The notes beneath the pieces are model-generated. The model was not told the origin of the DNA. It did not search any database and saw nothing but the letters and a program-made list of their open reading frames with translations. Below are positions 5,539 to 30,195 of a stretch of 64,000 nt of DNA, one piece after another. Every line of letters starts with the position of its first letter. Position 1 is the first letter of the stretch. Source of the DNA: Sabellastarte sp. h YS-2021 (taxonomy: Eukaryota; Annelida; Polychaeta; Sabellida; Sabellidae); assembly GCA_964017235.1 (NCBI GenBank), contig OZ024927.1, positions 50,907,293-50,971,292 of the forward strand. The letters are read 5' to 3'. The position numbers and the translations under genes are program-made.

Positions 5539-5566
5539 TAACCCCAGCCTTTATGGGCTGGGGTTA
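5539..5566. repeat. Perfect 11-bp hairpin, putative terminus of decayed tandem-repeat element
   Basis: The arms TAACCCCAGCC and GGCTGGGGTTA enclose a 6-base loop, followed by AACAT. It sits at the edge of a region of degenerate tandem repeats (5570-7260). It has the same style as the hairpins at 17118-17150 and 29620-29641. The matching opposite terminus was not found, so the element's far end is unresolved. Confidence 0.5.
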
Positions 5567-5569
5567 ACA

Positions 5570-7260
5570 TAAAGCACCCAAAATTCAGAAAATTTCAAAA
5601 TTCAGAAAAATTTAAACAGTTTTCAGTCACTTTACCCAACATTTCTGAAACCCAAAGGGTCCAAAATTTGCTTGAAATCACTCTAGAATGGTTGAGATCG
5701 CATTTTTTTTATTTAAACAAAAAATCAAGGTGGGGACTGAAATTGGAGAAAATTCGATATTTTTTCGGAGGCACTATACCCAAGGTCTTTAACACCCTAA
5801 CAATCCAAAATTTACTCTAAATTGATTTATCTCCGACAGTTTTCAAGATAAAATTTTTGATTTCCGCCAAAATTCAAGATGGTTGCCGAAATTCATGAAA
5901 TCTGACATTTTTTATGGGCACTATATGTAACATCTCTTAAATCCTAAGGGTCCAAAATTAGCTCAAAATTGCTTTTAACAGTTTTGGAGATATTTGTGAA
6001 TTACTCATGTTGATAGCCAAGCACAAATAGCTTCTATTCACATACCTAGTGAGAGATTTGCATAACTTACAGTAAACACATTAAAGCTGGGGAGAACGTA
6101 GCTGAGCCTGTGACCTTTATTTTACAATAACTTGAATAGTTGAAAAATGATAATACATATACTCAAAATAGCCAATTAGCTATCCACAATATAGCTATCG
6201 CCCCTTTAATCATCCATACCAAATATGGTTAAGATATCTCCTGCACTGTGCTCTAAGCAGAAAACGGTTACTGAAAATGGCTAAATAAAGTACCCAAGTG
6301 GCTATTACTCACTTAGATATAGGGCTATGACTCCCAAAAGCAATACCAAGCACATTGTTCACCCAATAATCCTTTATAGGAAATTTGATAAGGATAGCTA
6401 AAATACTTTTTCCTTAAAATGAGAGGAAACAAAGTTCAATGAAAATAGCTAATTAGCTAATAGCATAGCTAAGGAGCTATAGCACCCAAAAGCTATACCA
6501 AGCAAGCTATGGACCCTAAAATCCTCACCAAATTTAGTTAAGATAGCTCTTGCACAGATTCTTAAGTGAACAGAAAATGTATCACTGAAAAATAGCTAAT
6601 TAAGTAGTAAGTGGCTATAACTCAGCTATACAGCTAGGACTCCCAAAAGCAACACCAAGCAAGCTATTCATCCAATATTCCTCCATACCAAATTTGGTAC
6701 AAATATCTTGTACATTTTTCCTTTAAATGAATAGAAATCAAATTGCTACTCAAAACAGCTAATTAGCTATTATTCTGTTACCTACATAGCTATATTAACC
6801 AAAAGCAATACCAAGCAAGCTATTGACCCAATAATCCTACAAAGCAAATTTGGAAAGGAAAACTATCGTATTTTTCCATAAAATGAGCAGAAACAAAGTG
6901 TGATAAAATGTGAGAATACTTAAAATAGCTAATTATCTATTAATACCATAGTTATTGAGCTCTAGCACCCCAAAGCTAGATCAAGCAAGGCATTACCCTA
7001 TAATCCTACTCCCCAAATTTAGTTAAGATAACTTATTAAGATAAATTATTCCCAAAAGCAATACCAAGCAAGCTATTAATCCAATAACCTTCCATACCAA
7101 ATTTTGTACAAATATCTTAAATCCTTTCCCTTTAAATGCACAGCCACCAAACTCCTACTCAAAATATCTAACTAGCTATTACTCTGTTAGCTGTACAGCT
7201 ACAAAAAACCAAAAGCAATTTGGTAAAAAGAGCGAACCTATTTTTCCTTAAAATGAGCAG
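5570..7260. repeat. Old degenerate tandem repeats, about 140-170 bp period
   Basis: Two repeat types occur in order. Up to about 6000, three diverged units carry TCCAAAATT..., then AGTTTT...GAGATAT, resembling the 169-bp unit at 28-29 kb. From about 6150 to 7260, roughly eight units carry AGCTAATTAGCTAT, CCCAAAAGCAATACCAAG and CCATACCAAATTTGGT, resembling the 133/143-bp units elsewhere in the window. Heavy divergence between units marks this as the oldest copy. Orientation appears reversed relative to the elements at 11-17 and 24-30 kb, since the hairpin lies on the left. Confidence 0.65.
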
Positions 7261-7269
7261 TAATGAAGT

Positions 7270-8386
7270 GTGCGGACACCGGAAAATTTAAAAAAAAAAT
7301 TTTTCCACCCCCCAGCGCGGTGGCCATACATATTCAATCATTTTTGGTGGAACAATTGGCACTGCTAAAAACCAATGAGATATAAAATTAAAGCCATGCT
7401 TACACCAAAAAGGAATTCAGCTCAAATCAATTTTTAAAAATCAGCCTCATTTTCATGCTGAGAGCTTAGCAGTATTAAGTTCATAATCTGTGTCAAATTG
7501 TTCTTTTTTTTTTTTTTTTGCAGTAAATGGTAATCAACAGCCATATTTGCAAAGATTCTTATCTGTGAGAAAATATTTTTTATCAAAGAATAACTCTCTG
7601 GAATTGTTCACCTTTCCATCAAACAACTATTGAAAATCTTCAAAAGTCACTGTAACTAAGCGCTTGTTTAATCTTTATTCTTTTGTACAACGTTAACCTT
7701 TGGTGTATAGAATCCAAGTATAAATCCCACTCTAAAAACAGGAGTTCAAACTCAAGGGAAGGGACTTAGTGAGACGGTTGTAGGATATTAAATATTGTAA
7801 TACTTGGATATGACCTCCATCCAGCTGTTCAGTAGGTGTGATAATATAAAGTAACAGAACATCAGTCTTTATTTAGTTTATTAGCCTTTAACATACTGTC
7901 CTATTCTGAAGCCCTTATCTCTACATCAATACAATAAACGATCACAATAATTACAGCCTCACCTATAAACTCTGGTGATTGTCAAAACAGTTACAGAACA
8001 GGATGAAAAAAAAAACACATATTCTGAAATAACAACACTTTCATATACACACCAAATTAGAGCCTTTTATGCTTGTTTTAAATAATATTTTTATTTTCAC
8101 ATTATATATCCTTACATCTATATTCTCCCCAACTATATTGTATTTTTCCCCCAAAAAATTACAATAAAAATTCCAACATAAACAGATAAGTAAAATATAG
8201 AATTTCATGTTGTTTTAAACAAAAGGGTAAACAAACGCCTGATTTTCAAACAACAAGCAAATGCACCTTTAATCTGTGACAAAAGAACCACAGAACCACC
8301 TCTAGTTTTAAACATAATCACATGCTTTAACCTTAAGAACACACATCTTTCACACCAACTCCCTTTGTTCTAGAGGATGCATACAT
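7270..8386. other. Non-coding AT-rich stretch
   Basis: It holds a poly-A/T run near 7290, a 19-base poly-T near 7505-7520 and no recognisable gene or repeat family. Confidence 0.4.
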
Positions 8387-8773
8387 TAGTGGTGGGAATC
8401 AGCCTAAATTATCCAAGTCGATCAAATCATTAACTTTGCAGACTGATAATTGAGTCACAATTATTCACCTATTTTGCGACACTGATGGTCATTACTAAAT
8501 AAATCGCTTTACAAGATGAAGTTTATATAAACCCTGGAAGAATTTTGATGGTTTTTCAGTTTACAAAATTTAATTTCTTCTGAAAATACCCAAAGAAAAA
8601 AAAGTTGTAATAAATCTATCGATTTAATGAATAAAAAACTGCCCAAACTATGCTGAATACATGTTGATAATTATATGAAGAAAGGTAAGATTTGTGAATG
8701 ATTGATTTGCAATTGTCAATGACCAATTGCGACAGGACACAGTCACCAACTGGTAATTGAACCTACACCACTA
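8387..8773. mobile_element. hAT-like MITE, 387 bp
   Basis: The termini are TAGTGGTGGG at the left and CACCACTA at the right, an inverted pair. The flanking 8-mers are GCATACAT and GTATGCAT, an 8-bp target duplication with two mismatches. No coding capacity is present. The TAGTG(G/T)TG end and 8-bp duplication are hallmarks of the hAT superfamily. The left end resembles that of the element at 17486. Confidence 0.65.
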
Positions 8774-9350
8774 GTATGCATCTGAAAGTAAAACTAACAG
8801 AAAACTGCCAGACATCATCAATAAAAACTCTGCATTAGTTCAAGTGTGTTCAGTCTTATGCCTAGGTAATACAACACATCTGTAGTTAAAGCCTAGAATG
8901 CCAAAAATGTACATTTATAATTAGAAAAAAGTAGACTTTTTCAAAGTACTTCTACCATTGTAACTATCATGTATTTATATTTTAAAATTACAAAGCAGAA
9001 AGTATTTCCACTTTTGCCACAAAATTTATATCAAATACTTTTGAACTATCTGCATCAGGTGATCAGTCCAAGTAACTGGACACTAGTGGAAAGGACAGTC
9101 ACATAAATCACTTTAATCTAATCTCAAATTTTCAGATTTTTATCGAAAATATGGACCACTAACTGATCATTCCGTAATAAATGTATCACATTAAGGTTGT
9201 GTTTTAAATGATTGACATTATATGAGAATTTCAGATTTTTCATTCTGAAGAACTTTAAATCTTCAAGCATTTAAATTTAACAAAGGTTGAACCTACTGGG
9301 CCTACTATATTACTATTCTTTCATTAAATATATATAAAAAAAACCCACCT

Positions 9351-9919
9351 GGGTCTGTATTCACAAAGATTCTTAGAATTTTTCTTAGAATTACACTTAA
9401 GTCTAAGAAAAATTCTATGCTAAGAATTTTCTTATTCTTAGAATAAAATCCTATTCACAAAACAATTCTTAGCTAAGAATAATCATAGAAGTAAAAGAAA
9501 ATGTATGCAATTCTTAGAATTTTTCTTAGACTAAGTGTAATTTTAAGAAAAATTCTAAGAATACAGATCTTGGCAATTGTGAACAGAAAGTTAGAAATTT
9601 TGAAATAATGTAAAGTTACTGCATTTCATTACAGTACTCACAATAGACAACTTAATATGTAACACTCTGTTCCAAAACAACTATTTTTCTCAAGCATAGA
9701 ATATTCTAAGAATAAGAATCTTTGTGAATAGAAAATTCTTATTCTTAGATAAATTCTAAGAATAAAAACCATTCTTAGAAAAATTCTAAGAATAGGCATA
9801 ATTATTCTAAGAATAAGAATCTTTGTGAACAGGAAAATTCTTATTCTTAAAATTTTTCTAAGAATAATGACAATTCCAAGAAAAATTCTAAGAATAAGAA
9901 TATTTGTGAATACAGGCCC
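9351..9919. mobile_element. Foldback element with long terminal inverted repeats, 569 bp
   Basis: The ends are inverted copies of GG(T/C)CTGTATTCACAAA followed by a run of TTCTTAGAATT-type words. The whole interior is made of alternating TTCTTAGAAT and ATTCTAAGAA motifs in both orientations, so the element can fold extensively on itself. No transposase and no clear target duplication were seen. Confidence 0.65.
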
Positions 9920-10800: not shown

Positions 10801-11579
10801 AACCTCAATTTCTACAATTGCGAGAAATTAGATCTTAGAAGGATTAAAGTTCGAGCATATATATCACATTGCCTATTTGGAGGTCTTGTCAACAGAAAAA
10901 TAAAAAGGAATACATTCATTCTTAACTTTCAAAAATGTTTTAACTTTACCTTGACCATTTAAAAGAATTTATTTAATGTCTGAAAAGTACCAACAATATA
11001 GTGTCTTTCACCAATCATTTTTTCTCATTGTACATGAATAACCTGAATATGGTTAAAAATCAAAAACCTGCATGTCGGCTACTCTAAGGAGGATTAAAGG
11101 CAAGTCCAAGTTGATTTTTAACATGGAATACAATTGACGTTTTCCATGAGTTTTCATGCTTCAACTGATTTTAAAACAAAAACACCAATTCAATCTACAT
11201 TTGTATTTGTTAAAATAAAAGCTGAGGCAGTTGTAACAAAATAACCTACACAGTATCACATACAGTAGAATGTAAATAAGGTTAACAGGTTGGGGTGACA
11301 ATATCCAACAAGTAGAAGAAATATTTCAACATAAGAATAACTATTAGTAAGATTTTGAGCAGTTTTGAACTAAAACAAAGACCAAACACAGACCCCAGTT
11401 TTTAAAATTAAATAATAAGCATTCTGACACATGCATTTATCTCCCGCCGTATAAATTTGATGTACTAAAGATAGTGGAATATAAATTTTCTTGTGAGATG
11501 GAGGCACATGTAGAAGTGACAAGTTTAATGTTTGATTGCAATACTTTATTATGCAGTAGATCAACCCAAAGTAGGTAAG

Positions 11580-14500
11580 GGCATATTTAGAAAAAATTGT
11601 CTATCTGTAACACTTTTAGAGATAAAAGATATTTACTTATTTTAGTGGCTATTACTCTGCCATCGAAAGAGCTACAGTTCTGCAACTTCACTATGTGGTA
11701 AATCACCCAAAAGCAGGTGAATGACTTATTTAGAAGAAATTGCCTACCTGTAATACTTTTAGAGATAAAAGACATTTACTCATTTTAGTAGCTATTACTC
11801 AGCTATCCAAAGAGCTACAGTTCTGCAACTTCACTATGTGGTAGACCACCCAAAAGTAGGTGAATGACTTATTTAGAAGAAATTGCCTACCTGTAATACT
11901 TTTAGAGATAAAAGACATTTACTCATTTTAGTAGCTATCACTCAGCTATCCAAAGAGCTACAGTTCTGCAACTTCAATATGTGGTAGATCACACAAAAGT
12001 AGGTGAATGACTTTAGACGAAATTGCCTACCTGTAACACTTTTAGAGATAAAAGACATTTACTCATTTTAGTGGCTATTACTCAGCTATCCAAAGAGCTA
12101 CAGTTCTGCAACTTCACTATGTGGTAGTGTTGTTAACGGTTTTCCGGTATGCGGAATATCGTTTCGTTTTAGTAGAAAAAACGAAATCCGCAAAGAATAT
12201 TTGGGAACCGGTTATTGTAAAAGTTATTATTTTAGGCTTTCTAATGGCTGATACTTCATAGAAACACCAAAAAATATACATACTTTGTAAAATATGTCCC
12301 AATTTTACTTTATATTGAGCAAAAATCATTTTTACGTACTTAATAATATCTCGCGAAAGCCACTTCCATTTGCAAGTTATCGCTCATGTACGCCGGCAAA
12401 TAATTTTCAATGCACAGAACAAGTATACGAAATACCGGATTTCGTTTCGTTTCAAAGCCCCGGTAACCGGTTTGGACTTCTGTAAACGATGCCACCACTA
12501 CTATGTGGTAGATCACCCAAAAGCAGGTGAATGACTTATTTTAAAGAAATTGCCTACCCGTAATACTTTTAGAGATAAAAGACATTTACTCATTTTAGTA
12601 GCTATTACTCAGCTATCCAAAGAGCTACAGTTCTGCAACTTCAATATGTGGTAGATCACACAAAAGTAGGTGAATGACTTTAGACGAAATTGCCTACCTG
12701 TAACACTTTTAGAGATAAAAGACATTTACTCATTTTAGTGGCTATTACTCAGCTATCCAAAGAGCTACAGTTCTGCAACTTCACTATGTGGTAGATCACC
12801 CAAAAGCAGGTGAATGACTTATTTAAAAGAAATGGCCTACCCGTAATACTTTTAGAGATAAAAGACATTTACTCATTTTAGTAGCTATTACTCGGCTATC
12901 CAAAGAGCTCCAGTTCTGCAACTTCACTATGTGGTAGATCACCCAAAAGTATGTGAATGACTTATTTAGAAAAAATTGCCTACCTGTAATACTTTTAGAG
13001 ATAAAAGACATTTACTCATTTTAGTAGCTATTACTCAGCTATCCAAAGAGCTACAGTTCTGCAACTTCACTATGCGGTAGATTGCCCAAAAGTACGTGAA
13101 TGACTTATTAAGAAGAAATTGCCTACCTGTAATACTTTTAGAGATAAAAGACATTTACTCATTTTAGTAGCTATTACTCAGTTATCCAAAGAGCTACAGT
13201 TTTGCAACTTCACTATGTGGTAGATCACCCAAAATTAGGTGAATGACTTATTTAGAAGAAATTGCCTATGTGTAATATTTTTAGAGATAAAAGACAATTA
13301 CTCATTTTAGTAGCTATTACTCAGCTATCCAAAGAGCTACAGTTCTGCAACTTCACTAAGTGGTAGATCACCCAAAAGTAGGTGATTGACTTATTTAGAA
13401 GAAATTGCCTACCTGTAATACTTTTAGAAATAAAAGACATTTACTCATTTTAGTAGCTATTACTCAGCTATCCAAAGAGCTACAGTTCTGCAACTTCACT
13501 ATGTGGTAGATCACACAAAAGTACGTGAATGACTTATTTAGAAGAAATTGCCTATGTGTAATATTTTTAGAGATAAAAGACATTTACTCATTTTGGTAGC
13601 TATTACTGAGCTATCCAAAGAGCTACAGTTCTGCAACTTCACTATGTGGTAGATCACCCAAAAGCATGTGAATGACTTATTTAGAAGAAATTGCCTACCT
13701 GTAATACTTTTAGAGATAAAAGACATTTACTCATTTTAGTAGCTATTACTCAGCTATCCAAAGAGCTACAGTTCTGCAACTTCACTATGTGGTAGATCAC
13801 ACAAAAGTACGTGAATGACTTATTTAGAAGAAATTGCCTATGTGTAATATTTTTAGAGATAAAAGACATTTACTCATTTTGGTAGCTATTACTGAGCTAT
13901 CCAAAGAGCTACAGTTCTGCAACTTCACTATGTGGTAGATCACCCAAAAGCATGTGAATGACTTATTTAGAAGAAATTGCCTACCTGTAATACTTTTAGA
14001 GATAAAAGACATTTACTCATTTTAGTAGCTATTACTCAGCTATCCAAAGAGCTACAGTTCTGCAACTTCACTATGTGGTAGATCACCCAAAAGTACGTGA
14101 ATGACTTATTTAGAAGAAATTGCCTACCTGTAATACTTTTAGAGATAAAAGACATTTACTCATTTTAGTAGCTATTACTCAGCTATCCAAAGAGCTACAG
14201 TTCTGCAACTTCTCTATGTGGTAGATGACCCAAAAGTAGGTGAATGACTTATTTATAAGAAATTGCCTATCTGTAAAACTTTTAAAGATAAAAGACATTT
14301 ACTCATTTTAGTAACTATTACTCAGCTATCCAAAGAGCTACAGTTCTGCAACTTCTCTATGTGGTAGATGACCCAAAAGTAGGTGAATGAGTTACGTATA
14401 AGAAATTCCCTATCTGTAAAACTGTTAAAGATAAAAGACATTTACTCGTTTTAGTAGCTATTACTCAGCTATCCAAAGAGCTACAGTTCTGCAACTTCTC

Positions 14501-15330
14501 TATGTGGTAGATGACCCAAAAGTAGGTGAATGACTTATTTAGAAGAAATTGCCTATGTGTAATATTTTTAGAGATAAAAGACATTTACTCATTTTAGTAG
14601 CTATTACTCAGCTATCCAAAGAGCTACAGTTCTGCAACTTCACTATGTGGTAGATCACCCAAAAGTACGTGAATGACTTATTTAGAAGAAATTGCCTACC
14701 TGTAATACTTTTAGAGATAAAAGACATTTACTCATTTTAGTAGCTATTACTCAGCTATCCAAAGAGCTACAGTTCTGCAACTTCTCTATGTGGTAGATGA
14801 CCCAAAAGTAGGTGAATGACTTATTTATAAGAAATTGCCTAGCTGTAAAACTTTTAAAGATAAAAGACATTTACTCATTTTAGTAACTATTACTCAGCTA
14901 TCCAAAGAGCTACAGTTCTGCAACTTCTCTATGTGGTAGATGACCCAAAAGTAGGTGAATGAGTTACGTATAAGAAATTCCCTATCTGTAAAACTGTTAA
15001 AGATAAAAGACATTTACTCATTTTAGTAGCTATTACTCAGCTATCCAAAGAGCTACAGTTCTGCAACTTCTCTATGTGGCAGATCACCCAAAAGTAGGTG
15101 AATGACTTATTTAGAAGAAATTGCCTATGTGTAATATTTTTAGAGATAAAAGACATTTACTCATTTTAGTAGCTATTACTGAGCTATCCAAAGAGCTACA
15201 GTTCTGCAACTTCACTATGTGGTAGATCACCCAAAAGTAGGTGAATGACTTATTTAGAAGAAATTGCCTACCTATAATACTTTTAGAGATAAAAGACATT
15301 TACTCATTTTAGTAGCTCTTGCTCAGCTAT
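11580..15330. repeat. 143-bp satellite array, about 23 units
   Basis: Units share TTTTAGAGATAAAAGACATT, then TAGCTATTACTCAGCTATCC, then GCAACTTC.CTATGTGGTAG and CCCAAAAGTAGGTGAATGA. Successive anchors fall at 143-bp spacing, with an occasional 140. Blocks of units are themselves duplicated: 13501-13786 recurs at 13787-14072 (286 bp, two units), and the variant units near 14212 recur near 14784 (572 bp, four units). One unit is split by a MITE at 12125-12500. Confidence 0.9.
12125..12500. mobile_element. hAT-like MITE inserted in the 143-bp array, 376 bp
   Basis: A perfect 8-bp target duplication, CTATGTGG, flanks it (12117-12124 and 12501-12508), and the CTATGTGG word belongs to the satellite unit. 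The element begins TAGTGTTG and ends CACCACTA, a short imperfect inverted repeat, with inner GGTTTTCCGG/CCGGTAACCGG and CGTTTCGTTT motifs. The interior has no coding capacity. The insertion postdates that satellite unit. Confidence 0.8.
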
Positions 15331-15349
15331 CTACTCACTTAGCTATTGA

Positions 15350-16950
15350 CCTACATCTGCAAAAGCAACAAAAATATAAAGGACACAGGAAAGTAAGCTT
15401 TTGAAAAACTAGATGAATAACAAATGAAAAGATTTGCCTAACTTTGGTACTTGTGAAGGTATTTGACATTTATTTCCATCGTAATTTTGCTTCAAATAAG
15501 GAAATAGCTATTGCTCACTTATGACATGCAACAGAACCCCAAACTATATGCCATCTTATAGTTAAGGACAAAGTAGCTGAATAACATATTTTAGGAAAAT
15601 ACTCTAACTGCAATACTTTTGGAGTTACAATGGATTTACTCAACAGTCACAATTTCAAAGTAGCTATTACTCAGCTATCCAATGTGCAACAGGTTTGAAA
15701 CTTTATTATGTGATAGCTTACCAAAAACTAGATGAATAACATATTTGAAAAGAATTCCCTAACTTTAATACTTTTGAAGATATTTGACATTTACTTATGT
15801 CATTATTTTGCTACAAATAAGAAAATAGCTATTACTCACTTATGGCATGCAATAGAACCCCAAACTATATGCCATCTTATAATTAAGGACAAAGTAGCTG
15901 AATAACATATTTTAGGAAAATACTCTATCTGCACTAGTTTTGGAGTTACAATACATTTACTCAACTGCAGAATTTCAAAGTAGCTATACTCAGCTATCCA
16001 ATGTGCAACAGATCTGAAACGTTACTATGTGATAGCTTATCAAAAAGTAGATGAATAACATATTTGAAAAGAATTCCCTAACTTTAATACTTTTGAAGAT
16101 ATTTGACATTTACTTATGTCATTATTTTGCTACAAATAAGAAAATAGCTATTACTCACTTATGGCATGCAATAGAACCCCAAACTATATGCCATCTTATA
16201 ATTAAGGACAAAGTAGCTGAATAACATATTTTAGGAAAATACTCTATCTGCACTAGTTAAGGAGTTACAATAGATTTACTCAACTGCAGAATTTCAAAGT
16301 AGCTATACTCAGCTATCCAATGTGCAACATATGTGAAACATTACTATGTGATAGCTTATCAAAAAGTAGACGAATAACATATTTGAAAAGAATTCCCTAA
16401 CTTTAATACTTTTGAAGATATTTGACATTTACTTATGTCATTATTTTGCTACAAATAAGAAAATAGCTATCACTTATGGCATGCAATAGAACCCCAAACT
16501 ATATGCCATCTTATAGTTAAGGACAAAGTAGCTGAACAACATATTTTAGGAAAATACTCTAACTGCACTAGTTTTAGAGTTACAATGGATTTACTCAACA
16601 GTCACAATTTCAAAGTAGCTATTACTCAGCTATACAATGTGCAACAGGTTTGAAACTTTACTATGTGATAGCTTATCAAAAAGTAGATGAACAACATATT
16701 TGAAAAGAATTCCCTAACTTTAATACTTTTGAAGATATTTGACATTTACTCATGTCATTATTTTGCTACAAATAAGAAAATAGCTATTACTCACTTAAGG
16801 CATGCAATGGGACCCCAAACTATGTACTGCCTTATAGCTCAGGACAAAGTAGCTGAACAACATATTTGAAGAAAAAGTTGTAACTGCAATACTTTTTGAG
16901 TTATGAGCCCTTTACTCCAAGTAGCTAAGATTGCTATTACTCACTTTTCT
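15350..16950. repeat. 319-bp satellite array, four to five units
   Basis: The anchor ATATTTGAAAAGAATTCCCT recurs at 15741, 16060, 16379 and 16696. Each unit has two halves that both resemble the 143-bp unit (TAGCTATTACTCAGCTATCC in one, TAGCTATTACTCACTTATGG in the other). The 319-bp unit therefore looks like a diverged dimer that then amplified. Flanking partial units lie at 15350-15420 and 16860-16950. Confidence 0.85.
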
Positions 16951-17117
16951 TTAGGCCTAAGTCCATAAAACCAAAAAAATTTTCGAGGGCGTGAAAATTC
17001 ATTGGGACAATTAATTTACAAAAAATCTGTAGCTGTAGTAGTTTTGGAGAAATCTGCGTGACTAACTAACGCATGCACTCACACACGCACGCACGCACAC
17101 ACAGGCATCATTTCATA

Positions 17118-17150
17118 ATCTCCCTCCCGGGCTAAAGCCCGGCGGGAGAT
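17118..17150 (+). repeat. 3' terminal hairpin of the 11.4-17.2 kb element
   Basis: Nested stems ATCTCCC/GGGAGAT and CCGGGCT/AGCCCGG are separated by a small asymmetric bulge and an AA loop. It is GC-rich in AT-rich surroundings and preceded by an ACGCACGCACACAC microsatellite. Subterminal hairpins of this kind mark the 3' ends of Helitron-like elements. Confidence 0.65.
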
Positions 17151-17156
17151 AATTAA

Positions 17157-17485: not shown

Positions 17486-17881
17486 TAGTGGTGGGATCGC
17501 CAGCTTAAATGGCAGATCAAGCATCACTTGTTGGAAACGAGTTGAACTTGAGTAATTTTCGGGATAAAGTATTTTGTTTGTTAGCCATTAATATGGAAAA
17601 TATTTTACATAACCGTACGTGAGGCAAAACTTTGACCTGGAAATGGCTTTCATAATATAATTTAAGTTAAATCTTCATTGATTTAAGCCAGAATAAAGTA
17701 AAAATGCAATATATTTTGGAAAATTTCAGATATTTCTATTGTTTTAGTGAAGTGTCAACCTTAGATGGTGAAAATAATGACGTTTTCAAAAACTCGAGTT
17801 TCACTTGCACAGATTGATGTGACCCCCAATTATCGCCCATCGAGTTACAACTCGAATTTCAGTCAACTCATCCCAGCATTA
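17486..17881. mobile_element. hAT-like MITE, 396 bp
   Basis: The left end TAGTGGTGGGAT and the right end ATCCCAGCATTA are inverted with two mismatches. The flanking 8-mers TTTGTTAC and GTTGTTAC differ at one base. No transposase is encoded. It lies about 280 bp beyond the stop codon of the main gene. Confidence 0.7.
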
Positions 17882-18160: not shown

Positions 18161-21100
18161 TCAATAATTCTCTTTATTATCAGGTATCACAGCAGAAGAG
18201 GACACACCAGTGAGTACCCGTGGGCTGACAGGCCCGTACATTTCCAACCAGTGTTTCTTCATCTTGAAACCCTCGGTGTCCTCTGCTCGCTTCTTGCCTG
18301 CCCTGCCTTTACCCTGGTTGATGTTACTGCTGGCCTGCAAGCACTTGATCTCAGAAACACAGGACTTTGGACTGTCTTTAGACTGAGAAGAGATGCCATC
18401 ATTCAAAGACTTCTTCCGACGCTTCTTGTTACTTGAATGCTTAGGTTTATGTCTCTTCTTCAAACATGGCGGCGTTTCTGTCACTGCTGTTGAAGTTAAA
18501 GTCTCCTGTTCAGTTCTTGGTAGAATATGTGACACTGCTGAAATCACATTTGTTGCCCCTAAAGGTACAGTTGTATTCTCACTTGATTGCACTACTTCTG
18601 GATTTACTTTCTTCTCCTTGAGCTTTGCTTTCAATGCTTTACTCTTACCTACTCTGGGACTGGAGTACTGCGTTGGTACAGGTCTTACTAGGAGATGACT
18701 CACCCCATCAGTACAGGATGAGTAGATGTCCTTTAAACTCGACAGATCCTCTGCTGATCTACATTTATCCAAACTGAACTTTGGTTTAATGTGTTCAGAT
18801 ACATAGAAAGGGGACACCGATTTGGGCCTTTCCTTTTCATTTGAGAGGTTTGCCTTGGGGTCGTGTTCATATTTTCTGTGTGGAGATAAGGACTTGGGTC
18901 TTTTATTGCCAGAAACTTGTATTAATTCACCTGACTCAGTATGTTGTCCATCACAAGCAGTTACATTGACTTCTGGTTTTGGTGGGGATTCACTAAGTAA
19001 AGCCTGTTGAGGGATTGCAGGCTTCTTTAAAATGTCACCAACAACAAGATTTAATTTATTGCAATTAAATATCTGTTCTATAGGAAGGCTAACAATGACA
19101 CTGGGACTGATGGACAGAGTAGGGGTTATTCCTACCTTTTCATCAGGTGATTTGATTTCAGATTTGTGAAAATTATCAGTACAATCAGTGCCTGAACTAC
19201 CACTATGTATATCGACTGTCTTCACATGTTCCCCTTCCCAACATAAGTCTCCACTACTTAAACTACTTTGAGCATCCATCACTGTTACTTCTGTCACATT
19301 CTTCCTTACTTTCAAGTCAATCTCAAAACCCGTCTTTATATTCTCATTTCCCACGACATTTTCTTTAAAATTTGCACTTTGCATTGTTTGTTCAACTACA
19401 GTACATTCATCATCGACCTTTTTTAGCTTCAGTTTGTTATCCACAGAGGGGACAACCTTGTCTTTTTCATAACTCTTTAGGGCCTTTTTCCCACTTGCCA
19501 CAGCACCTTTTACCACTGTCGATTTCTTTGGTGTGGTCAGAGGTTTACCAAATTGGCTTTTCTGGCCAGCTGGCTGATGCACCAACAAGTCTGTTTTCTT
19601 GTTCTGTTTTAAGATGGTCTCATTTGACACAGTCCTGAATGGTGGTCTTACAGGTGGCTTTTTACTTGACACCACTGTTACTGTTGTTGGCTTTGCCACT
19701 GGTTTCTTGCACAGTTTACCTGCACTTATACCAGTAGATCTGTTTGTGACTGGCTTTGGTTTATTGACTTTATTCATGTCTTCCTCACGTCTAATTCTCT
19801 TGGAGGGAGTGGACAAGCTGGTCTTGCTGTTGCCAGACATCTGCCTCTTCTTGGAGGTTTTTATCACTGGATCCCTGGGTTCATCAGTCAGTGTGATCAC
19901 ACTGACATCATCCATGTTCACCACCTCAGTCTCAATGTTACCCACTGCTTTCTCTTCAGTTAAGTATGAAATCAGTGGAAAAAACTTTTTGGTTTTCTGA
20001 GGCTTTCGCTTTCTGATGAAGTCTTTTGTGACCTTACCCCTAGCCTGTCTGCTTTGATAGGTATAATTGTGGTCATCAAACCCTTTTGTCTTAGCATGTT
20101 TGGTGATTTTGGGTGTACTTGTCTGTGCCATACCACTTTCTGTATTATTCCCACACGTGTCTTTTTGTATTGGACTTTCACCCGGATCCTGAGATTGCTC
20201 TCCCATAAAGCCTTTGGCACTTGTAGCATCAGGCTTTACTGGACTGAAGTTAGACAAGCTCACAGCCAGGTCATCCAAAGAGGTTTTGGTGATTACACTA
20301 AATCCCTGAGAAGGGACAGGCTCAGTGGTTTTGGGCAACCGTTGAATTTCCTCAGTCAGTAACCCTGAATGACCAGTCTCCTTATGACCATCACACCTGG
20401 TTTTCTCTGAAGTCTGAACTTTGCTTTCTTCATGGCTGCCACCACACACTTTATTTGGACTGTATGCAGTCTGTATATCAAACCCCACACTCTCCATACT
20501 GATGTTGCTCATATTACTATCCTCACTCATCACTTGGACACTAGCCTTCTCAGAACTCTTATGTTTCTGCTTTTGTACTGGAATGGGAGACTTTTTCCGC
20601 AATGGGATATCAATACCTTGCAAGGGCTGCAGCATATCAGGAAGGCTGTCAACATCTGCGAAAGGTAGTATCTTCCAGACTTCATCTGTGTTTTCACTGT
20701 CCTGTGTACTGTCCACTTCGTCCTCTACCTGTAGCGATGAGAGCGAGTCTCGAGGTACAAATGAATGCTCTGCAGTGGAGATATCACAGGTACAGGATAG
20801 GTTGGACTGGTTGGACTCTTCCTCATTCTCCAGATCCAACACACAGTGGTGAGATACACTCTGAATGTCCCCATCACTACAATGAGAGTCCTCATCGAAT
20901 ATGTCTGTGTCTGTATGCTTCTTTCCCTTAACTCTCTCCCCGGCGGGACTGATAACAATGGGTTTGAACACATAAGCAGAGGATGGCAGGTGGATGGAGT
21001 TATTCCCATCATTGATTGTACCATACCTCTCTTTAACATCAAAACAAATGGACATGTCCTTGTCACCATTTTCAACCTCACACTTTATGTCCATTTCAGA

Positions 21101-22155
21101 TATATCTGCAGCTCCCTTTATCAGACAATTTTCATTGAAATCACTCAGCACTGAAGAGTTCTCCTTCAAATCGTAGCCATCATCCATTTTCTCATCTTTG
21201 ATATCTACTTGCGACACAGAAGGCAACTCGTTTGTCACTTTACCAGCGTCCCCAACAACAATGTCCTTCTTAAGTTCCTTTGCAACCCTCAATGCATGCT
21301 GTTTCTTCAGCACCTGTTTTCTCTTGTCACTCTTGGCAGATCGTTTCTCCGTGTGAGTTGGGCTGGTGCTTTTTGTGCTTTTCTTATGCATGTCACTCTC
21401 CTCAGAAACAAACTGTTTAACTAGTTTATCATGCATTACCTTTGCAAATTGACCTTGTTCCACACGATACTTGTCACTGCCAGCAAATGATAGCTTTTTG
21501 TGTTTGGTAATGCCCAGGGCCCCGGAAATGCTACTATCTTTACTGTAACTGTCCACAGTCACACTTTTGTGTGTGCCACTAAGACTCCTTTCACTAAAAG
21601 AAGCACTTGCATCATCCCTTTTGTCTGGAGTTTTTGTTTTAGGGGAGATTAACTGGGTTTTTGACACACTGTCAAGCCCTGGTGGTAAAGGCACACCCAT
21701 AATTCTAGCCTGCAGTGACAACAGCTTGAGAAAGTCTGTAGTCATTGGGGATATCTTTGGATTGGGGGGTGGAGTAGTTCTGCATTCTCTGCCTGATACA
21801 CTTTGGTGGTACTTTATCTTGATGAATTCTTTCAGGGTTTTCTCCAGAAGCTCCCTCTGGCCCTTATCTGTGGTCACAGCCTTAAAAGCTGCATCGAATG
21901 AACACAAATCCCCTGACTTGTGCAGTGGGGCATCATGTAGCAGTGGAGAGGTTGGCAGTTCATATCTCTTTGGACCTGGTGTGGTGGGTTTGTAGAAGGC
22001 ACTAGGTCTGTTGGGACTGTCATCCAGTATAACTCCTGCAGAGCTGGGCCTATTGGGCTGTAGGCGACGGACTTGTGGTGTTCTGAGCTTGGGTAGGGTA
22101 CCATCAGCACTGAATGAACGTTTGCGAAACGATGACTTCACCAGTGGTAATGGTG
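18161..22155 (-). CDS. Terminal coding exon of large nuclear-type disordered protein with C-terminal KEN box
   Basis: An uninterrupted minus-strand frame gives residues 75-1405 of the model, ending in TGA. The acceptor (TTGATTTGTTTAG, just beyond 22155) restores phase with the preceding exon (GAG G / CA CCA). The chain is Ser/Lys/Thr-rich and probably disordered, with no enzyme motif or transmembrane span. Visible features are proline/Arg-rich segments at about 75-145, a possible helix near 175-190 (LLEKTLKEFIKIKY), CDK-type S/T-P-x-K/R sites (TPDK, TPSK, SPHR), basic clusters like nuclear localisation signals (KRIRRE, NKKRRKK) and the last residues DNKENY. KEN is the APC/C-Cdh1 degron, so cell-cycle-regulated turnover is plausible but inferred. 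Its long uninterrupted reading frame also contrasts with the decayed neighbours. The gene family is not recognised. Confidence 0.9.
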
Positions 22156-23484
22156 CTAAACAAATCAAGAAGACAGATACTGATCAGATTTTGTGCATTG
22201 GCTAGAGTAACAAATTTGAAGTTCACCAGTGTGAGGAATAAGCGAGGAAAGAAATCTGTGTATCTTAACTGGAATTTTGGAAAATTTCTGAATTTTTTAT
22301 ATATTTACATTTTTGGAATATTCTGGCCAAAATATAGTTTTTGAGACAATTAAAGTCTATCAATGCAATTTACTTTGAATTTTGTGGCTTGATTAATTTG
22401 AATGCATATTCCCAATCATGAATATCATGTGAGGTAGGAATTAAAATCCAAGATTTTAATTCTGCTATTTGGTTAAACAAGATACTAATGTCTTTAAAAA
22501 ATCAAAAATTTTCACAAATCTATTAACACAAAGACAGTTGGAAATAAAATCCAGTATCAAACTTTTATGTAAATATATCTTACAAATTGACATTATACAA
22601 TTGAATTGTTTCACCATCACCCTTATTGTCTCATTTGACTGAAGAATATTCACACAAAAAGTGTTTGAACTATAGTAATTATTCCAACTAGTGGGTACAT
22701 AGTTTATCAAAAATTGTCAATATTTTTTGTTTTGGGACAGGGTTTCTGACACTGATGTGCAAAGACATATGTCAATATCAGCATTTTATGTACTTCCTTA
22801 AACTTCCTTGTAAGAAATTATAAACTTTTATTTCATATTTTTGTAGATTTTAATGCGTTATTGATCAAAACTGCCATGATTTGTTTTGATAAACTTCACT
22901 TCCAGTTAGCAGGCCTATTCGGTTGGGGATATGGTAGAACAAAACTTGAAAGTATCCTGGAATCGGACTGTTTAGCAGACAACATTATCCCCCAATATTA
23001 GAGCTGAAAGAGAAGACAAAAATCGTGGTCGAATATCCGCATCCCGGAATTCGGAAATTTTCGAATATTCGTTTGGTGTGTTTTAGTACTGTCCATTTAT
23101 TTTGCTGAAATACCCAAATGCGGTTGTTGGTACAACCGCATGAAAGTTGTCATAAAAACTTAAGCAAACGAGGTATATTTTCCTTAATTTTAATTATTTA
23201 TTATGTTATTGGACAAAAATCATACTTAATTGTGCTATTTTGCGTTTTGATGCCCAATTATTATACATATACCGAATATTTGTTTGCTCATGATGAAAGT
23301 CGAATACGGAAAATGCAGAGCGGAGAATGAATAATGCGAATATCCCTTTCAGCTCTACCCAATATCAGCCAATATTGAAATAATTTTACATTCGATATCA
23401 ATATCCACACAACCAAACTATGTACCCACTAAATCCTACACACTAATTTTGAAACATTTAAAGACAAAAAATTGACATATTTAC
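22156..23484 (-). other. Intron 2 of the main gene, containing a hAT MITE
   Basis: The intron is bounded by donor GTAAAT at 23484 and acceptor TTTAG at 22156 on the minus strand, and is 1.3 kb and AT-rich. The only identified insert is the MITE at 22999-23357. Confidence 0.85.
22999..23357. mobile_element. hAT-like MITE in intron 2, 359 bp
   Basis: The termini TAGAGCTGAAAG and CTTTCAGCTCTA are perfect 12-bp inverted repeats. A perfect 8-bp target duplication CCCAATAT lies at 22991-22998 and 23358-23365. The inner regions carry CGAATATCC/GAATATTCG-type palindromic words. The intact ends and duplication suggest a relatively recent insertion. Confidence 0.85.
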
Positions 23485-23602: not shown

Positions 23603-24299
23603 CTGCAAAAAATATATATATAGATGTTGTGACAGAACTTTAAATCTGACAGAATTGCAAATTTCAGTTCAGAATTAGAAGACTTAAGACTTTTACCAAG
23701 GCTAAAATTGCTTAGTCAAACAATATATTCTTGAATTAAATATCACACTGCAGGACTTTAGGAGACCAAACATACACAGAGATGAATATTATTATTAGCC
23801 ACAGTTAAGCTAGGAATTTCTATAAGCTTATAAATGTGCTTCCCCAGACTGCTTGTAAAAAAAAAAAATTAAAATTTTCCTTCCAATTAATGCCATAATA
23901 ATTTTTACACATAACCGAAAAGAACTATGTATATGTCACATGTCAAATTAAAATTCATGGAGATTTAAAATCTGTCTTGGCCAAATTAAAATTTTGATTC
24001 CAAGCTGATTTTAGTAAAATATTAACCCTTGGCCAGGTAACATTTAATATTTCAATTTTGCCTTAGTAGCATTAAATTGTATAATTCATCTAGTAGACAT
24101 TCCAGTTAGCACTGGTTGATTTTAAAACTTGATTTTATCTGGGTGAAATTTATATCAAAGTTAACTAGAGGATCGCTCGCAAAAAAAAAAGATAATGTTT
24201 TTGCATAGCAAAAACAAAGCGTCCCGAAAAGGATATAAAGGTGAGTGCTAAAGTATTAAGAAAATGCTTCGTTTCTAGCCTTACACTGTTGTGGCAACC

Positions 24300-24665
24300 A
24301 AAGTCAGCGCAGTCTGCTCTATCTAGCACGGTTTTCAAGATATAAGCATTTTTGTGTTTTGCAAAAAATAAAAAAATTAAAAATGTCCGCTATATTTGAC
24401 GAGACAAAAATATTTTGAAAATTGGCATGGCTACTCTGCAGAGATACCCAGCAGGTCCAAAATTTTGTTGAGTTCGCTCCATATAGCACGGTTTTCGAGA
24501 TATAAGCATTTTTGTGTTTTGCAAAAACTTTGAAAATTCAAAATGGCCACCATTTTTGGGGAGACAAAAATTTTTGTCAAGACCACTGCCGTGGTATCTC
24601 CCGCCGAGCATTAAAGCAGAAGAAATAGCTTTTCCGAGATATTCACAATTTTTCATTTTCGTGTG
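24300..24665. repeat. 169-bp-type repeat, two left-hand units
   Basis: Two diverged units carry GCACGGTTTTC(A/G)AGATATAAGC, then AAAATG(G/T)CC, then GAGACAAAAAT and CTCTGCAGAGATACCC. They are separated from the other units of this type by the whole 133-bp array, as if the 133-bp repeats expanded inside a 169-bp array. Confidence 0.85.
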
Positions 24666-27600
24666 TGAAAGGTCTTCCAAAAGTAGGTGAATGAGTTATT
24701 TGAGAAAAATTGGCTATCTGCAATACTATTAAGAGATAATTCACATTTACTCATTTTGAGTAGGTGAATAATTATCTATGGGTCTGAAACTTCACCAAGT
24801 GAAAGCTCTCCCAAAAGTAGGTGAATGAGTTATTTGAGAAAAATTGGCTATCTGCAATACTTTTAGAGATAATTCTCATTTTGAGTAGGTGAGTAATTAG
24901 CTATGGGTCTGAAACTTCACAGAGTGAAAGCTCTCCCAAAAGTAGGTGAATGAGTTATTTGAGAAAAATTGGCTATCTGCAATACTTTTAGAGATAATTC
25001 GCATTTACTCATTTTGAGTAGACGAGTAATTAGCTATGGGTCTGAAACTTCACCAAGTGAAAGCTCTCCCAAAAGTAGGTGAATGATTAATTTGAGAAAA
25101 ATTGGCTATCTGCAATACTTTTAGAGATAATTCGCATTTACTCATTTTGAGTAGGTGAGTAATTAGCTATGGGTCTGAAACTTCACCAAGTGAAAGCTCT
25201 CCCAAAAGTAGGTGAGTGAGTTATTTGAGAAAAATTGGCTATCTGCAATACTTTTAGAGATAATTCGCATTTACTCATTTTGAGTAGGTGAGTAATTAGC
25301 TATGGGTCTGAAACTTCACCAAGTGAAAGCTCTCCCAAAAGTAGGTGAATGATTAATTTGAGAAAAATTGGCTATCTGCAATACTTTTAGAGATAATTCG
25401 CATTTACTCATTTTGAGTAGGTGAGTAATTAGCTATGGGTCTGAAACTTCACAGAGTGAAAGCTCTCCCAAAAGTAGGTGAATGAGTTATTTGAGAAAAA
25501 TTGGCCATCTGCAATACTTTTAGAGGTAATTCGCATTTCCTCATTTTGAGTAGGTGAGTAATTAGCTATGGGTCTGAAACTTCACCAAGTGAAAGCTCTC
25601 CCAAAAGTAGGTGAATGAGTTATTTGAGAAAAATTGGCTATCTGCAATACTTTTAGAGATAATTCACATTTACTCATTTTCAGTAGGTGAGTAATTAGCT
25701 ATGGGTCTGAAACTTCACAGAGTGAAAGCTCTCCCAAAAGTAGGTGAATGAGTTATTTGAGAAAAATTGGCTATCTGCAATACTTTTAGAGATAATTCGC
25801 ATTTACTCATTTTGAGTAGGTGAGTAATTAGCTATGGGTCTGAAACTTCACAGAGTGAAAGCTCTCCCAAAAGTAGGTGAATGAGTTATTTGAGAAAAAT
25901 TGGCTATCTGCAATACTTTTAGAGATAATTCACATTTACTCATTTTGAGTAGGTGAGTAATTAGCTATGGGTCTGAAACTTCACCAAGTGAAAGCTCTCC
26001 CAAAAGTAGGTGAATGATTAATTTGAGAAAAATTGGCTATCTGCAATACTTTTAGAGATAATTCGCATTTACTCATTTTGAGTAGGTGAGTAATTAGCTA
26101 TGGGTCTGAAACTTCACAGAGTGAAAGCTCTCCCAAAAGTAGGTGAATGAGTTATTTGAGAAAAATTGGCTATCTGCAATACTTTTAGAGATAATTCGCA
26201 TTTACTGATTTTGAGTAGGTGAGTAATTAGCTATGGGTCTGAAACTTCACCAAGTGAAAGCTCTCCCAAAAGTAGGTGAATGAGTTATTTGAGAAAAATT
26301 GGCTATCTGCAATACTTTTAGAGATAATTCGCATTTACTCATTTTGAGTAGACGAGTAATTAGCTATGGGTCTGAAACTTCACCAAGTGAAAGCTCTCCC
26401 AAAAGTAGGTGAATGATTAATTTGAGAAAAATTGGCTATCTGCAATACTTTTAGAGATAATTCGCATTTACTCATTTTGAGTAGGTGAGTAATTAGCTAT
26501 GGGTCTGAAACTTCACCAAGTGAAAGCTCTCCCAAAAGTAGGTGAGTGAGTTATTTGAGAAAAATTGGCTATCTGCAATACTTTTAGAGATAATTCGCAT
26601 TTACTCATTTTGAGTAGGTGAGTAATTAGCTATGGGTCTGAAACTTCACCAAGTGAAAGCTCTCCCAAAAGTAGGTGAATGATTAATTTGAGAAAAATTG
26701 GCTATCTGCAATACTTTTAGAGATAATTCGCATTTACTCATTTTGAGTAGGTGAGTAATTAGCTATGGGTCTGAAACTTCACAGAGTGAAAGCTCTCCCA
26801 AAAGTAGGTGAATGAGTTATTTGAGAAAAATTGGCCATCTGCAATACTTTTAGAGGTAATTCGCATTTCCTCATTTTGAGTAGGTGAGTAATTAGCTATG
26901 GGTCTGAAACTTCACCAAGTGAAAGCTCTCCCAAAAGTAGGTGAATGAGTTATTTGAGAAAAATTGGCTATCTGCAATACTTTTAGAGATAATTCACATT
27001 TACTCATTTTCAGTAGGTGAGTAATTAGCTATGGGTCTGAAACTTCACAGAGTGAAAGCTCTCCCAAAAGTAGGTGAATGAGTTATTTGAGAAAAATTGG
27101 CTATCTGCAATACTTTTAGAGATAATTCGCATTTACTCATTTTGAGTAGGTGAGTAATTAGCTATGGGTCTGAAACTTCACAGAGTGAAAGCTCTCCCAA
27201 AAGTAGGTGAATGAGTTATTTGAGAAAAATTGGCTATCTGCAATACTTTTAGAGATAATTCACATTTACTCATTTTGAGTAGGTGAGTAATTAGCTATGG
27301 GTCTGAAACTTCACCAAGTGAAAGCTCTCCCAAAAGTAGGTGAATGATTAATTTGAGAAAAATTGGCTATCTGCAATACTTTTAGAGATAATTCGCATTT
27401 ACTCATTTTGAGTAGGTGAGTAATTAGCTATGGGTCTGAAACTTCACAGAGTGAAAGCTCTCCCAAAAGTAGGTGAATGAGTTATTTGAGAAAAATTGGC
27501 TATCTGCAATACTTTTAGAGATAATTCGCATTTACTGATTTTGAGTAGGTGAGTAATTAGCTATGGGTCTGAAACTTCACCAAGTGAAAGCTCTCCCAAA

Positions 27601-27993
27601 AGTAGGTGAATGAGTTATTTGAGAAAAATTGGCTATCTGCAATACTTTTAGAGATAATTCGCATTTACTCATTTTGAGTAGGTGAGTAATTAGCTATGGG
27701 TCTGAAACTTCACAGAGTGAAAGCTCTCCCAAAAGTAGGTGAATGAGTTATTTGAGAAAAATTGGCTATCTGCAATACTTTTACAGATAATTCGCATTTA
27801 CTCATTTTGAGTAGGTGAGTAATTGGCTATGGGTCTGAAACTTCACCATGTGAAAGCTCTTCCAAAAGTAGGTGAATGAGTTATTTGAGAAAAATTGGCC
27901 ATCTGCAATACTTTTAGAGGTAATTCGCATTTACTCTTTTTGAGTAGGTGAGCAATTAGCTATGGGTCTGAAACTTCACCAAGTGAAAGCTCT
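24666..27993. repeat. 133-bp satellite array with a 1330-bp higher-order repeat
   Basis: There are about 25 units built on CCAAAAGTAGGTGAATGA, GAGAAAAATTGGCTATCTGC and ATTAGCTATGGGTCTGAAAC. Anchors at 24936, 25069 and 25202 give 133 bp; one unit is shortened to 126. Rare variants recur exactly 1330 bp apart: GTAGACGAG (25019/26349), TTGGCCATC (25501/26831), TTTACTGATT (26201/27531) and CATTTTCAGTAGG. Ten consecutive units were therefore duplicated as a block very recently. The unit shares words with the 143-bp unit (AAAAGTAGGTGAATGA, ATACTTTTAGAGATAA). Confidence 0.92.
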
Positions 27994-29257
27994 TTGGGAT
28001 AGCTGCTCTGCAGAGATACCCTGAAGATAAAAAATTTCGTTGAAATCGCTCTATGTAGCACAGTTTTCGAAATATTAGCATTTTTGTGTTTTGCAATTTT
28101 TGCGCAAAAATTCGAAAATTCAAAATGGCCGCCATTTTTGGCAAGAGAAAATTTTTTTGAAAATTGGCATGGCTAGTCTGCATAGATACCCTGTGGGTCA
28201 AAAATTTCGTCGAAATCACTCTATCTAGCACGGTTTTCGAGATATAAGCATTTTTGTGTTTTGCAATTTTGCGAAAAATTCGAAAATTCAAAATGGCCGC
28301 CATTTTTTGCGAGAAATTTTTTGTTTGAAAATTGGCAGCTACTCTGCAGAGATACCCTGCGGGTCAAAAATTTCGTCGAAATCGCTCTATCTAGCAGGGT
28401 TTTCGAGATATAAGCATTTTTATGTTTTGCAATTTTTGCGAAAAATTCGAAAATTCAAAATGGCCGCCATTTTTGGCGAGACAAAAATTTTTTCAAAATT
28501 GGGATAACTACTCTGCAGAGATACCCTGTGGGTCAAAAGTTTCGTCGAAATCGCTCTATCTAGCACGGTTTTCGAGATATAAGCATTTTTGTGTTTTGCA
28601 ATTTTTGCGAAAATTTCGAAAATTCAAAATGGCCGGCATTTTTGGCGAAACAAAAATTTTTTGAAAATTGGGGAAACTACTCCGCAGAGATATCCTGCGG
28701 GTCAAAAATTTTGTCGAAATTGCTCTATCTAGCACGGTTTTTGAGATATAAGCATTTTTGTGTTTTGCAATTTTTGCGAAAAATTCGAAAATTCAAAATG
28801 GCCGACATTTTTGGCGAGACAAAAATTTTTTCAAAATTGAGATAACTACTCTGCAGAGATTCCCTGTGGGTCAAAAATTTCGTCGAAATCGCTCTATCTA
28901 GCACGGTTTTCGAGATATAAGCATTTTTGTGTTTTGCAATTTTTGCGAAAATTTCGAAAATTCAAAATGGCCGGCATTTTTGGCGAGACAAAAATTTTTT
29001 GAAAATTGGGAAAACTACTCCGCAGAGATATCCTGTGGGTCAAAAATTTTGTCGAAATTGCTCTATCTAGCACGGTTTTTGAGATATAAGCATTTTTGTG
29101 AAAATTTCGAAAATTCAAAATGGCCGCCATTTTGGGCGAGACAAAATTTTTTTGAAAATTGGGAAAACTACTCCGCAGAGATACCCTGCGGGTCAAAAAT
29201 TTCGTCGAAATCGCTCTATCTAGCACGGTTTTCGAGATATAAGCATTTTTGTGTTTT
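27994..29257. repeat. 169-bp satellite array, about seven units
   Basis: Units contain GAGATACCCTG(C/T)GGGTCAAA, TCTATCTAGCACGGTTTTCG, GATATAAGCATTTTTGTG and AAAATGGCCGCCATTTT. Spacing is 166-169 bp, with one unit near 29095 shortened by loss of the GTGTTTTGCAATTTTTGCG segment. Frames shift from unit to unit, so the ORFs crossing it are not genes. The central near-palindrome reads AAAATGGCGGCC on the minus strand, similar to a YY1 site. Confidence 0.9.
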
Positions 29258-30195
29258 CCTTTTGGAAAATTCGTAATGATTAATTAATCATTAATTACTC
29301 GGCCATTTCTTGACCAATCAATGCCAAAATCTAATGATTTCCAGATTTTAATACAATGAATGTATTTGCCAAGTTTCAGGTGAATTGATAAAATTCCTTT
29401 CAAGTTATCATCCGGACAAGCTTCCCCATCGAAAAAAGACATTTTTGGTCATGTGACCTCTCTGATTGGTTGAAATGTCACTGCAGCATATTCAAAAAAA
29501 TTCCCCAAGGCTACTGCCTAAACCTGCCAAATTTGAAAAGAATCCGCCTAATGGTTACAGAGTTATAAGGAAAACAAAATGCGGAGCCGGCGGAGCCGGA
29601 AGCTCTCCCATACACAAACAAGCGTCCCTTGCGGGACGCTTAATTAAATATGGAATATAACTGGATATATTTTAAATTGTTGATACAAATTTTCTTTAGT
29701 CCCAAGCAAAACAAAATGTGGTATACCAGTATTACATTAGCAACACTACTTATCATTGGTCCTAGGGCTTAGAAATGTGAAAACTACTTCAAGGAAATCA
29801 TTTGCTATGAATTATTTGCATTTGTTGAAACTATTAACCCTTGTTTTAAGGTCAAATGGAGCCGTTACAGTAAAATGGCCTTTATCTCCCCTATTATTGG
29901 TTCTTGTGCTTCAGAATGAGAAAACAGCTTTTAAGAAACCATGGCCTGCAAATCTTGTCCAAGTATTGCAAATCTTGTCCAAGTATTAAATCTGACCTTT
30001 GACCCCTGTTTCCACTAAAAAGGTCTTGTATATCCATTATTATTGGTCCCTGGGCTTTAAACCCTTTAAGGTCAAAATAAAGCTCTAATATTAACCCAAA
30101 ATTCTATCAGTCTTTTAAATGTTAAAAGGTAGTTTATCAGTGCTTTTAACATCAACTAGTCATGCTATTATCCTGATATGAGTAAATTAACTTAC

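Follow-up and report, generated by a model that had tools for sequence, protein, structure and literature searches.

Results

Satellite-carrying elements in the window

The window analyzed here is a 64,000-nt stretch of contig OZ024927.1 (C1:50907293-50971292) of the annelid Sabellastarte sp. h YS-2021, whose genome (1.786 Gb, 647 contigs) was searched for relatives of the features found. It holds two elements, A and B, which most probably belong to the non-autonomous Helitron2/Helentron-type rolling-circle elements (HINEs). Inside B lies the 3′ terminus of a third family, C, followed directly by a satellite array, and a fourth family, D, is represented by a terminal hairpin. The features are as follows:

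5539–5566, minus strand: 5′-terminal hairpin of family D, marking the right end of an element that extends leftward; the left end of that element was not found
5567–7260, no strand assigned: older satellite repeat, separate from D (satellite comparison; genome relatives without the hairpin)
11415–17152, minus strand: element A, HINE-type, 5′ end at the right; one or two outermost A's on either side may belong to the target
11416–11449, minus strand: 3′ end of A, with the repeat about 21 bp inside the terminus and a weak 4-bp stem as the downstream hairpin
11556–15331, no strand assigned: 143-bp satellite array of A, broken by an insert at about 12128-12500 and homologous to the 133-bp satellite in B
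15396–16903, no strand assigned: 319-bp satellite array of A, homologous to the 143-bp array
17119–17152, minus strand: 5′-terminal hairpin of A, holding the 5′ inverted repeat TTATCTCCCGCCG (DNA fold; right-end genome copies)
24163–29641, minus strand: element B, composite, HINE-type, 5′ end at the right (end counts and pairing)
24163–24226, minus strand: 3′ end of B, with the repeat 54 bp inside the terminus, then a hairpin (24197-24215) and a tail ending in CTAGTT
24315–24576, no strand assigned: left piece of B's own 169-bp satellite, 79–82% identical to 27994-29257
24577–24606, minus strand: nested 3′ terminus of family C (TCAAGACCACTGCCGTGGTATCTCCCGCCG; genome copies and B left-end loci)
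24665–27993, no strand assigned: 133-bp array, presumably introduced with family C; it is homologous to the 143-bp array of A
27994–29257, no strand assigned: right piece of B's own 169-bp satellite (tandem-repeat detection and self-comparison)
29620–29641, minus strand: 5′-terminal hairpin of B, AAGCGTCCC-GCAA-GGGACGCTT (DNA fold; right-end genome copies)

Ends of A and B

The matched short inverted repeats of 13 and 10 bp that the original prediction, made from the letters of the window, had placed at 11437-17152 and 24217-29641 were found. That of A is perfect over 13 bp (11437-11449 / 17140-17152), while the 10-bp repeat of B (24217-24226 / 29632-29641) is part of a 17-nt pair at 88%. Genome searches with up to two mismatches returned 3,690 right and 3,450 left ends of A and 8,277 right and 9,894 left ends of B. 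The reversed pattern of the same query, used as a control for each end count, returned none, and the predicted termini are in this respect genuine element ends. Both right ends form hairpins as single-stranded DNA (fold z score −4.92 for A and −4.72 for B), which none of 200 shuffles equaled in either case. At 30 right-end loci of each element the flanks were A/T-rich and diverged right after the hairpin, the first two A's having belonged to the search pattern; in the window an AATTAA follows directly after both right ends, as described earlier.

On the left, the boundaries first proposed (11437 and 24217) proved too narrow, as conserved sequence extends 21 and 54 bp further, to about 11415 and to 24163. 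In all 20 fetched left ends of A the conservation ran about 21 bases past the reported repeat and stopped at A/CAAGCATTC, a motif in which the window copy has T in place of C, and the base preceding the left edge was A in 37 of 44 flanks. For B it ran 54 bases past the repeat, to AACTAGAGGATCGC, in 8/8 left-end loci. These eight amount to five independent places, because L093-L096 are a single tandem cluster. All inspected loci (L numbers) were the first places on contig C1; L014 and L015 are duplicates of one another.

Pairing of the ends was tested with exact matches among the listed places only. For A, all 100 listed right ends and 51 of 100 listed left ends (those below 75 Mb) were used, and for 38 of the 51 a right end lay no more than 15 kb away in the correct order and strand. 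In 1,000 shifts the mean was 0.49 and the maximum 5, and the opposite strand gave 0; four of the 38 pairs lie in one tandem cluster near C1:16.99 Mb and have the same right end. The B sample comprised 99 of 100 listed left ends and 74 of 100 listed right ends (up to 29.4 Mb), and here 46/99 left ends had a right end within 12 kb (shifts: mean 1.3, maximum 6; opposite strand 0). One copy of A (L072/L022) sits in a 133-bp-type array, and its joined flanks align to the neighboring monomer with no target duplication, though one or two A's leave the exact insertion point ambiguous.

The multicopy ends, the edges, the pairing and the one clean insertion of A show that A and B are real mobile families. 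A lone 13-bp inverted repeat over 5.7 kb is, by a rough estimate, not very rare, and could have come about by chance around satellites that arose in place. Such an origin is hardly credible, however, given thousands of copies per end, sharp edges with unrelated flanks and paired ends.

No open reading frame of at least 220 amino acids (aa) was found within A or within B. Both elements carry a microsatellite: an ACGC-type array at 17069-17102, beside the end module of A, and a GGAGCCGGC-type repeat at 29583-29597 in B, whose length varies between copies. The 319-bp satellite adjoins the right module of A in 29/30 right-end loci. A purely satellite body, as originally described, does not fit either element: the array of A is broken by the unrelated insert at about 12128-12500, B contains the C terminus at 24577-24606, and the end modules of both are not satellite.

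Some further observations were made on copies of the two elements. The insert in the 143-bp array of A is about 370 bp long (12128-12500) with TAGTG...CACTA-like ends and may be a hAT-like miniature inverted-repeat transposable element; over part of its length it shows 67% similarity to 17593-17793 read on the reverse strand. At C1:16972645-16997713 (L027-L029), units of about 3.05 kb that each comprise 133-bp-type repeats and an A end form a higher-order tandem array; here a HINE has turned into a large satellite. In one copy of B (L063:1500-1560) a second copy of the hairpin lies behind the 5′ hairpin, with AATTAGATAT repeated after each, which is perhaps a trace of rolling-circle read-through. 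In the flank of another (L092:1470-1500) a perfect hairpin with a 13-bp stem, GTATCCACCGGATGCTATCCGGTGGATAC, abuts the 3′ edge of B and is perhaps the 5′ end of another HINE. A landing preference beside other hairpins was considered and rejected, since by the set criterion only 1/44 left flanks, vs. 18/2000 control stretches, had one.

Terminus of a third family inside B

From its 3′ to its 5′ end, B consists of its own 3′ end, 169-bp satellite, the C terminus with the 133-bp array, 169-bp satellite again, and its own 5′ end. The internal terminus reads CAAGACCACTGCCGYGG..TATCTCCCGCC, which is the layout of the A 3′ end together with A's repeat, and differs from A outside the repeat. The repeat of A, TATCTCCCGCCG, recurs internally in B at 24595; the earlier statement that terminal sequences differ completely is thus correct for the outer ends of A and B, but not for the interior of B. 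The internal terminus belongs to a third family, C. With up to three mismatches, a threshold applied also to the D hairpin, it has 11,898 copies in the genome (control 0). It was present in all eight B left-end loci, i.e., in the five independent places, and in each the 133-bp array starts directly behind it.

To place C relative to B, all 100 listed exact C ends were used. Sixty-two follow an exact left end of B, 60 of them at a distance of 331–380 bp and two at 234 and 993 bp. From the 38 without an exact B left end we fetched 18, all drawn from the 20 that also lacked a B right end, and free C is therefore over-represented among them. Eleven of the 18 lay within B, and seven stood alone with unrelated flanks (L110, L112, L114, L117, L118, L119, and L125). 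Twenty ends stayed unclassified: 18 are followed by a B right end at a distance of up to 12 kb, and 2 are not. Thus, among the 80 exact 3′ ends of C classified on C1, 73 fall within B and 7 stand free, which would mean that the nested form of C has outgrown the free form.

The 143-bp satellite of A is homologous to the 133-bp satellite in B (z 40.8) and to A's 319-bp satellite (z 29.8), and the three arrays are mutually homologous at z 24 to 41 over shuffles. The 169-bp satellite of B has at best a distant likeness to them (z 1.6 to 4.9). Among the words originally listed as common to the cores, AAAAGTAGGTGAATGA is indeed shared (10 occurrences in A, 23 in B), but TAGCTATTACTCAGCTAT occurs 14 times in A, never in B and once at 42615, and GAGATAT has 18 + 8 occurrences, spread over the whole window. 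The 133-bp array was labeled beside B's satellite in 21/30 B right-end loci, each of which was viewed over 1.5 kb only. At L090 and L093-L096 the satellite of B runs ...TTTTTGAAAA to the C end and resumes at TTTGGGATAG on the far side, so the B flanks nearly restore one 169-bp monomer.

A and B share a satellite, then, because B holds the 3′ terminus and array of C, nested in B's own satellite. We propose that a copy of C landed in the 169-bp satellite of B, where it would now lie without its 5′ end, and that B then spread it, so that the C satellite, homologous to that of A, would travel under B ends. A single origin of the nesting in B seems probable, and the nested copy presumably lost its 5′ end, by whatever route. 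None of the viewed copies of nested C has a 5′ end, and spread of the nested form would accordingly rely on the ends of B alone. The original idea that the core repeat moves between elements holds insofar as one satellite can come to lie between termini of different kinds, but what moved appears to be a nested element and not a freely exchanged core.

Other results count against nesting as a complete account and bear on the alternative suggested originally, in which families exchange the satellite core; this would occur by array recombination or gene conversion, and the C terminus in B would have no part in it. The far-side junction was the same in just 15/30 B right-end loci and differed in at least 8 others (in the remainder it was outside the 1.5 kb viewed or not recognizable), so the arrays do recombine and were reshaped later. 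A copy of C outside B (L065), abutting a B right end, has the terminus followed by 169-like and then 319-like satellite. The older repeat at 5567-7260 also resembles both the 169-bp satellite of B (z 16.5) and the 319-bp satellite of A (z 4.4), and at the A right-end locus L010 the 133-bp type is joined to the 319-bp type. Since L065 and the older repeat hold both types, C-like elements combined the two satellites earlier than, or independently of, the nesting in B. Part of the satellite sharing is therefore not due to nesting, which leaves room for exchange at a deeper level. As an explanation of B, exchange is nevertheless unlikely: it predicts no terminus at the array junction, while the C terminus stands directly before the 133-bp array in 8/8 B left-end loci.

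Family D and the older satellite

The original prediction included a decayed third element at 5539-7260. We rejected these coordinates as one element, since they join the right end of D to a separate, older satellite. The D hairpin has 2,388 genome copies (control 0) and folds as single-stranded DNA with a z score of −5.05, equaled by 0/200 shuffles. With 5420-5660 as the query, in which the hairpin is at 120-147, the best 40 of 1,354 candidates were scored. All 39 non-self places reaching the hairpin extend leftward from it and end at query positions 136-156, and none of these 39 continues into the satellite. With the query 5560-7330, none of 117 non-self matches starts before position 18, a weaker test because only the last 7 hairpin bases were included. 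Relatives of 5567-7260 in the genome show about 64–83% identity and do not include the hairpin.

Class and polarity of the elements

In Helitron2 elements the 5′ repeat lies 0–2 bp from the terminus, within a hairpin, and the 3′ repeat about 20–30 bp inside, upstream of a hairpin (PMC3627910). A and B resemble this in their short asymmetric inverted repeats and in the 5′ repeat held in a terminal hairpin, and in B the 3′ repeat is likewise upstream of a hairpin with a clear fold (z −3.56). As the terminal hairpin repeat has the Helitron2 5′ layout and the subterminal repeat the 3′ layout, we read A and B on the minus strand, with the hairpin as the probable 5′ end. The prediction of a right hairpin that incorporates the right repeat was accordingly upheld, but the hairpin, then called 3′, would be 5′ by Helitron2/HINE rules. 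The one A copy analyzed for its target shows no duplication, and the A-rich sequence seen here is the T-rich target of HINEs read on the other strand. Canonical Helitrons (5′-TC, CTRR-3′, no terminal inverted repeats) were not matched: A and B have inverted repeats, neither starts with TC at the hairpin end, and the 3′ ends read ...GCTTGT in A and ...CTAGTT in B, with CTAG two bases from the edge.

We are thus confident that A, B, and D are HINEs and that B is a composite carrying nested C, so that the predicted Helentron/HINE/pearl-type architecture is supported. The four families have separate termini and are new families of a known kind, not three generations of one family as first suggested. 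Their 5′ end would be formed by a hairpin on the short inverted repeat and, in A and B, the 3′ repeat would lie 21–54 bp inside the terminus. With their satellite arrays, A and B would insert in A/T-rich DNA without target duplication. A, B, and D presumably replicate by the rolling-circle mechanism, with the enzyme probably supplied by an autonomous Helentron.

Several results weigh against this assignment. The 3′ repeat of B is 54 bp inside its terminus, vs. about 20–30 bp in Helitron2 (PMC3627910), though mite HINEs are described with 38–60 bp. The 3′ hairpin of A is weak and within the shuffle range (z 0.02), and that of C was matched by 31/200 shuffles (z −1.13). For 13/51 left ends of A and 53/99 of B no exact right end was in reach, and 2 left ends of A and 8 of B had one on the wrong side. 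A clean insertion, as looked for in the empty-site comparison proposed earlier, was obtained for A and not for B. Stretches of about 3.5 kb at 10 of the 24 Rep loci described below lacked the repeats and 3′ termini of A, B, C, and D.

Cut-and-paste transposons with terminal inverted repeats, or fold-back elements, would also account for the many copies, the short inverted repeats toward the two ends and the lack of coding capacity. We regard this as very improbable, because the repeats are not at both termini and the one A insertion is without target duplication.

Search for an autonomous partner

The Rep-type domain Helitron_like_N has 24 matches in the genome. One 2,245-aa frame, scanned as two pieces, gave DUF6570, Helitron_like_N and PIF1 above the cut-offs and an endonuclease match just under it (22.3 vs. 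24.5 bits), while in a second frame nearby the endonuclease match was above the cut-off (28.3). A Rep-helicase(-endonuclease) gene is thus present, which fits a Helentron. At the 10/24 Rep loci searched, an autonomous element with the same terminus, of the kind that the original prediction proposed to look for, was not found. In 19 kb around one Rep locus (L108) only a 9-base word from the 3′ end of A turned up, at the far edge. No tie between the Rep-helicase gene and A, B, or C was found. A D hairpin at C1:19229824, with a Rep match 8.4 kb to its right, was ruled out as a link, as D lies on the hairpin's other side. Upstream of the Rep-helicase frame, L107:1778-3555 comprises a GTCC/GTCT microsatellite, 187- and 164-bp satellites and, at L107:2992-3021, a perfect hairpin with an 11-bp stem, TAGGCGGGTTGCGTGTAACCAACCCGCCTA; it is possibly yet another HINE.

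Other features of the window

At 4900-5050 lies a stretch that resembles a 5S-rRNA-derived short interspersed element (AGTACTTGGATGG.TGACCGC); this stretch gave no Rfam match at gathering scores. A repeat at 9346-9917 is bounded by the inverted ends CTGTATTCACAAA...TTTGTGAATACAG and contains palindromic motifs of the TTCTTAGAAT type, with a tandem part at 9694-9896. Between A and B, a 1,340-aa open frame on the minus strand (18161-22183) is apparently a host-gene exon; Pfam returned no family for it, nor for a 240-aa frame. A further satellite array at 34026-35482 has a 145/280-bp period and is unrelated to the satellites of A and B by shuffle-z comparison.

Discussion

The closest described counterparts of A and B are the Cg_HINE elements of the Pacific oyster (PMC7492417). 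Like A and B, Cg_HINEs are non-coding and Helentron-type and have a hairpin, subterminal repeats, satellite arrays (138–181 bp in the oyster) and a microsatellite close to the 5′ module; they use a T-rich target without duplication, and no autonomous partner was found for them. Compared by description and not by sequence, they differ in that here an array stands directly behind the 3′ terminus of another element and the arrays of B are interleaved (169, 133, 169). The HINE/DINE-1 elements of PMC4067079 are likewise non-autonomous, with subterminal repeats, a T-rich or TT target and, in some copies, microsatellites or tandem repeats. Those elements, however, share sequence with an autonomous Helentron, a tie that was not found here. 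The pearl elements CvA, CvE, and CvG (PMC7492417, PMC11136912), bivalve members of the HINEs compared again by description only, are built of short arrays of repeats of about 160 bp, flanked by end modules. Further related work is found in PMC5148889 and PMC5139131.

Of the 11 Cg_HINE elements, two have double arrays, and the explanations given for these are recombination, junction fragments or filler DNA (PMC7492417). A review also reports, for the oyster, Helitron structures that lie within other elements and arrays common to different Helitrons (PMC12628747). They are described there as rearranged loci, whereas the nested structure described here is part of a family with thousands of ends. 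In the accessible parts of the literature searched we met no description of a multicopy HINE enclosing the terminus of another HINE, which is not proof of absence. The nesting in B exemplifies a process already suspected in oysters.

Tentatively, the satellite arrays of HINEs might serve as landing pads for other HINEs, with nesting and joint mobilization as a main route by which satellites change carriers, though we hold this for somewhat less than an even chance. The oyster work (PMC7492417) did not settle how one element comes to hold two arrays, or one array to occur in two elements. In B, one answer can still be read from a foreign 3′ terminus right before an array, and internal 3′ termini at array junctions offer a simple test for any HINE-rich genome.

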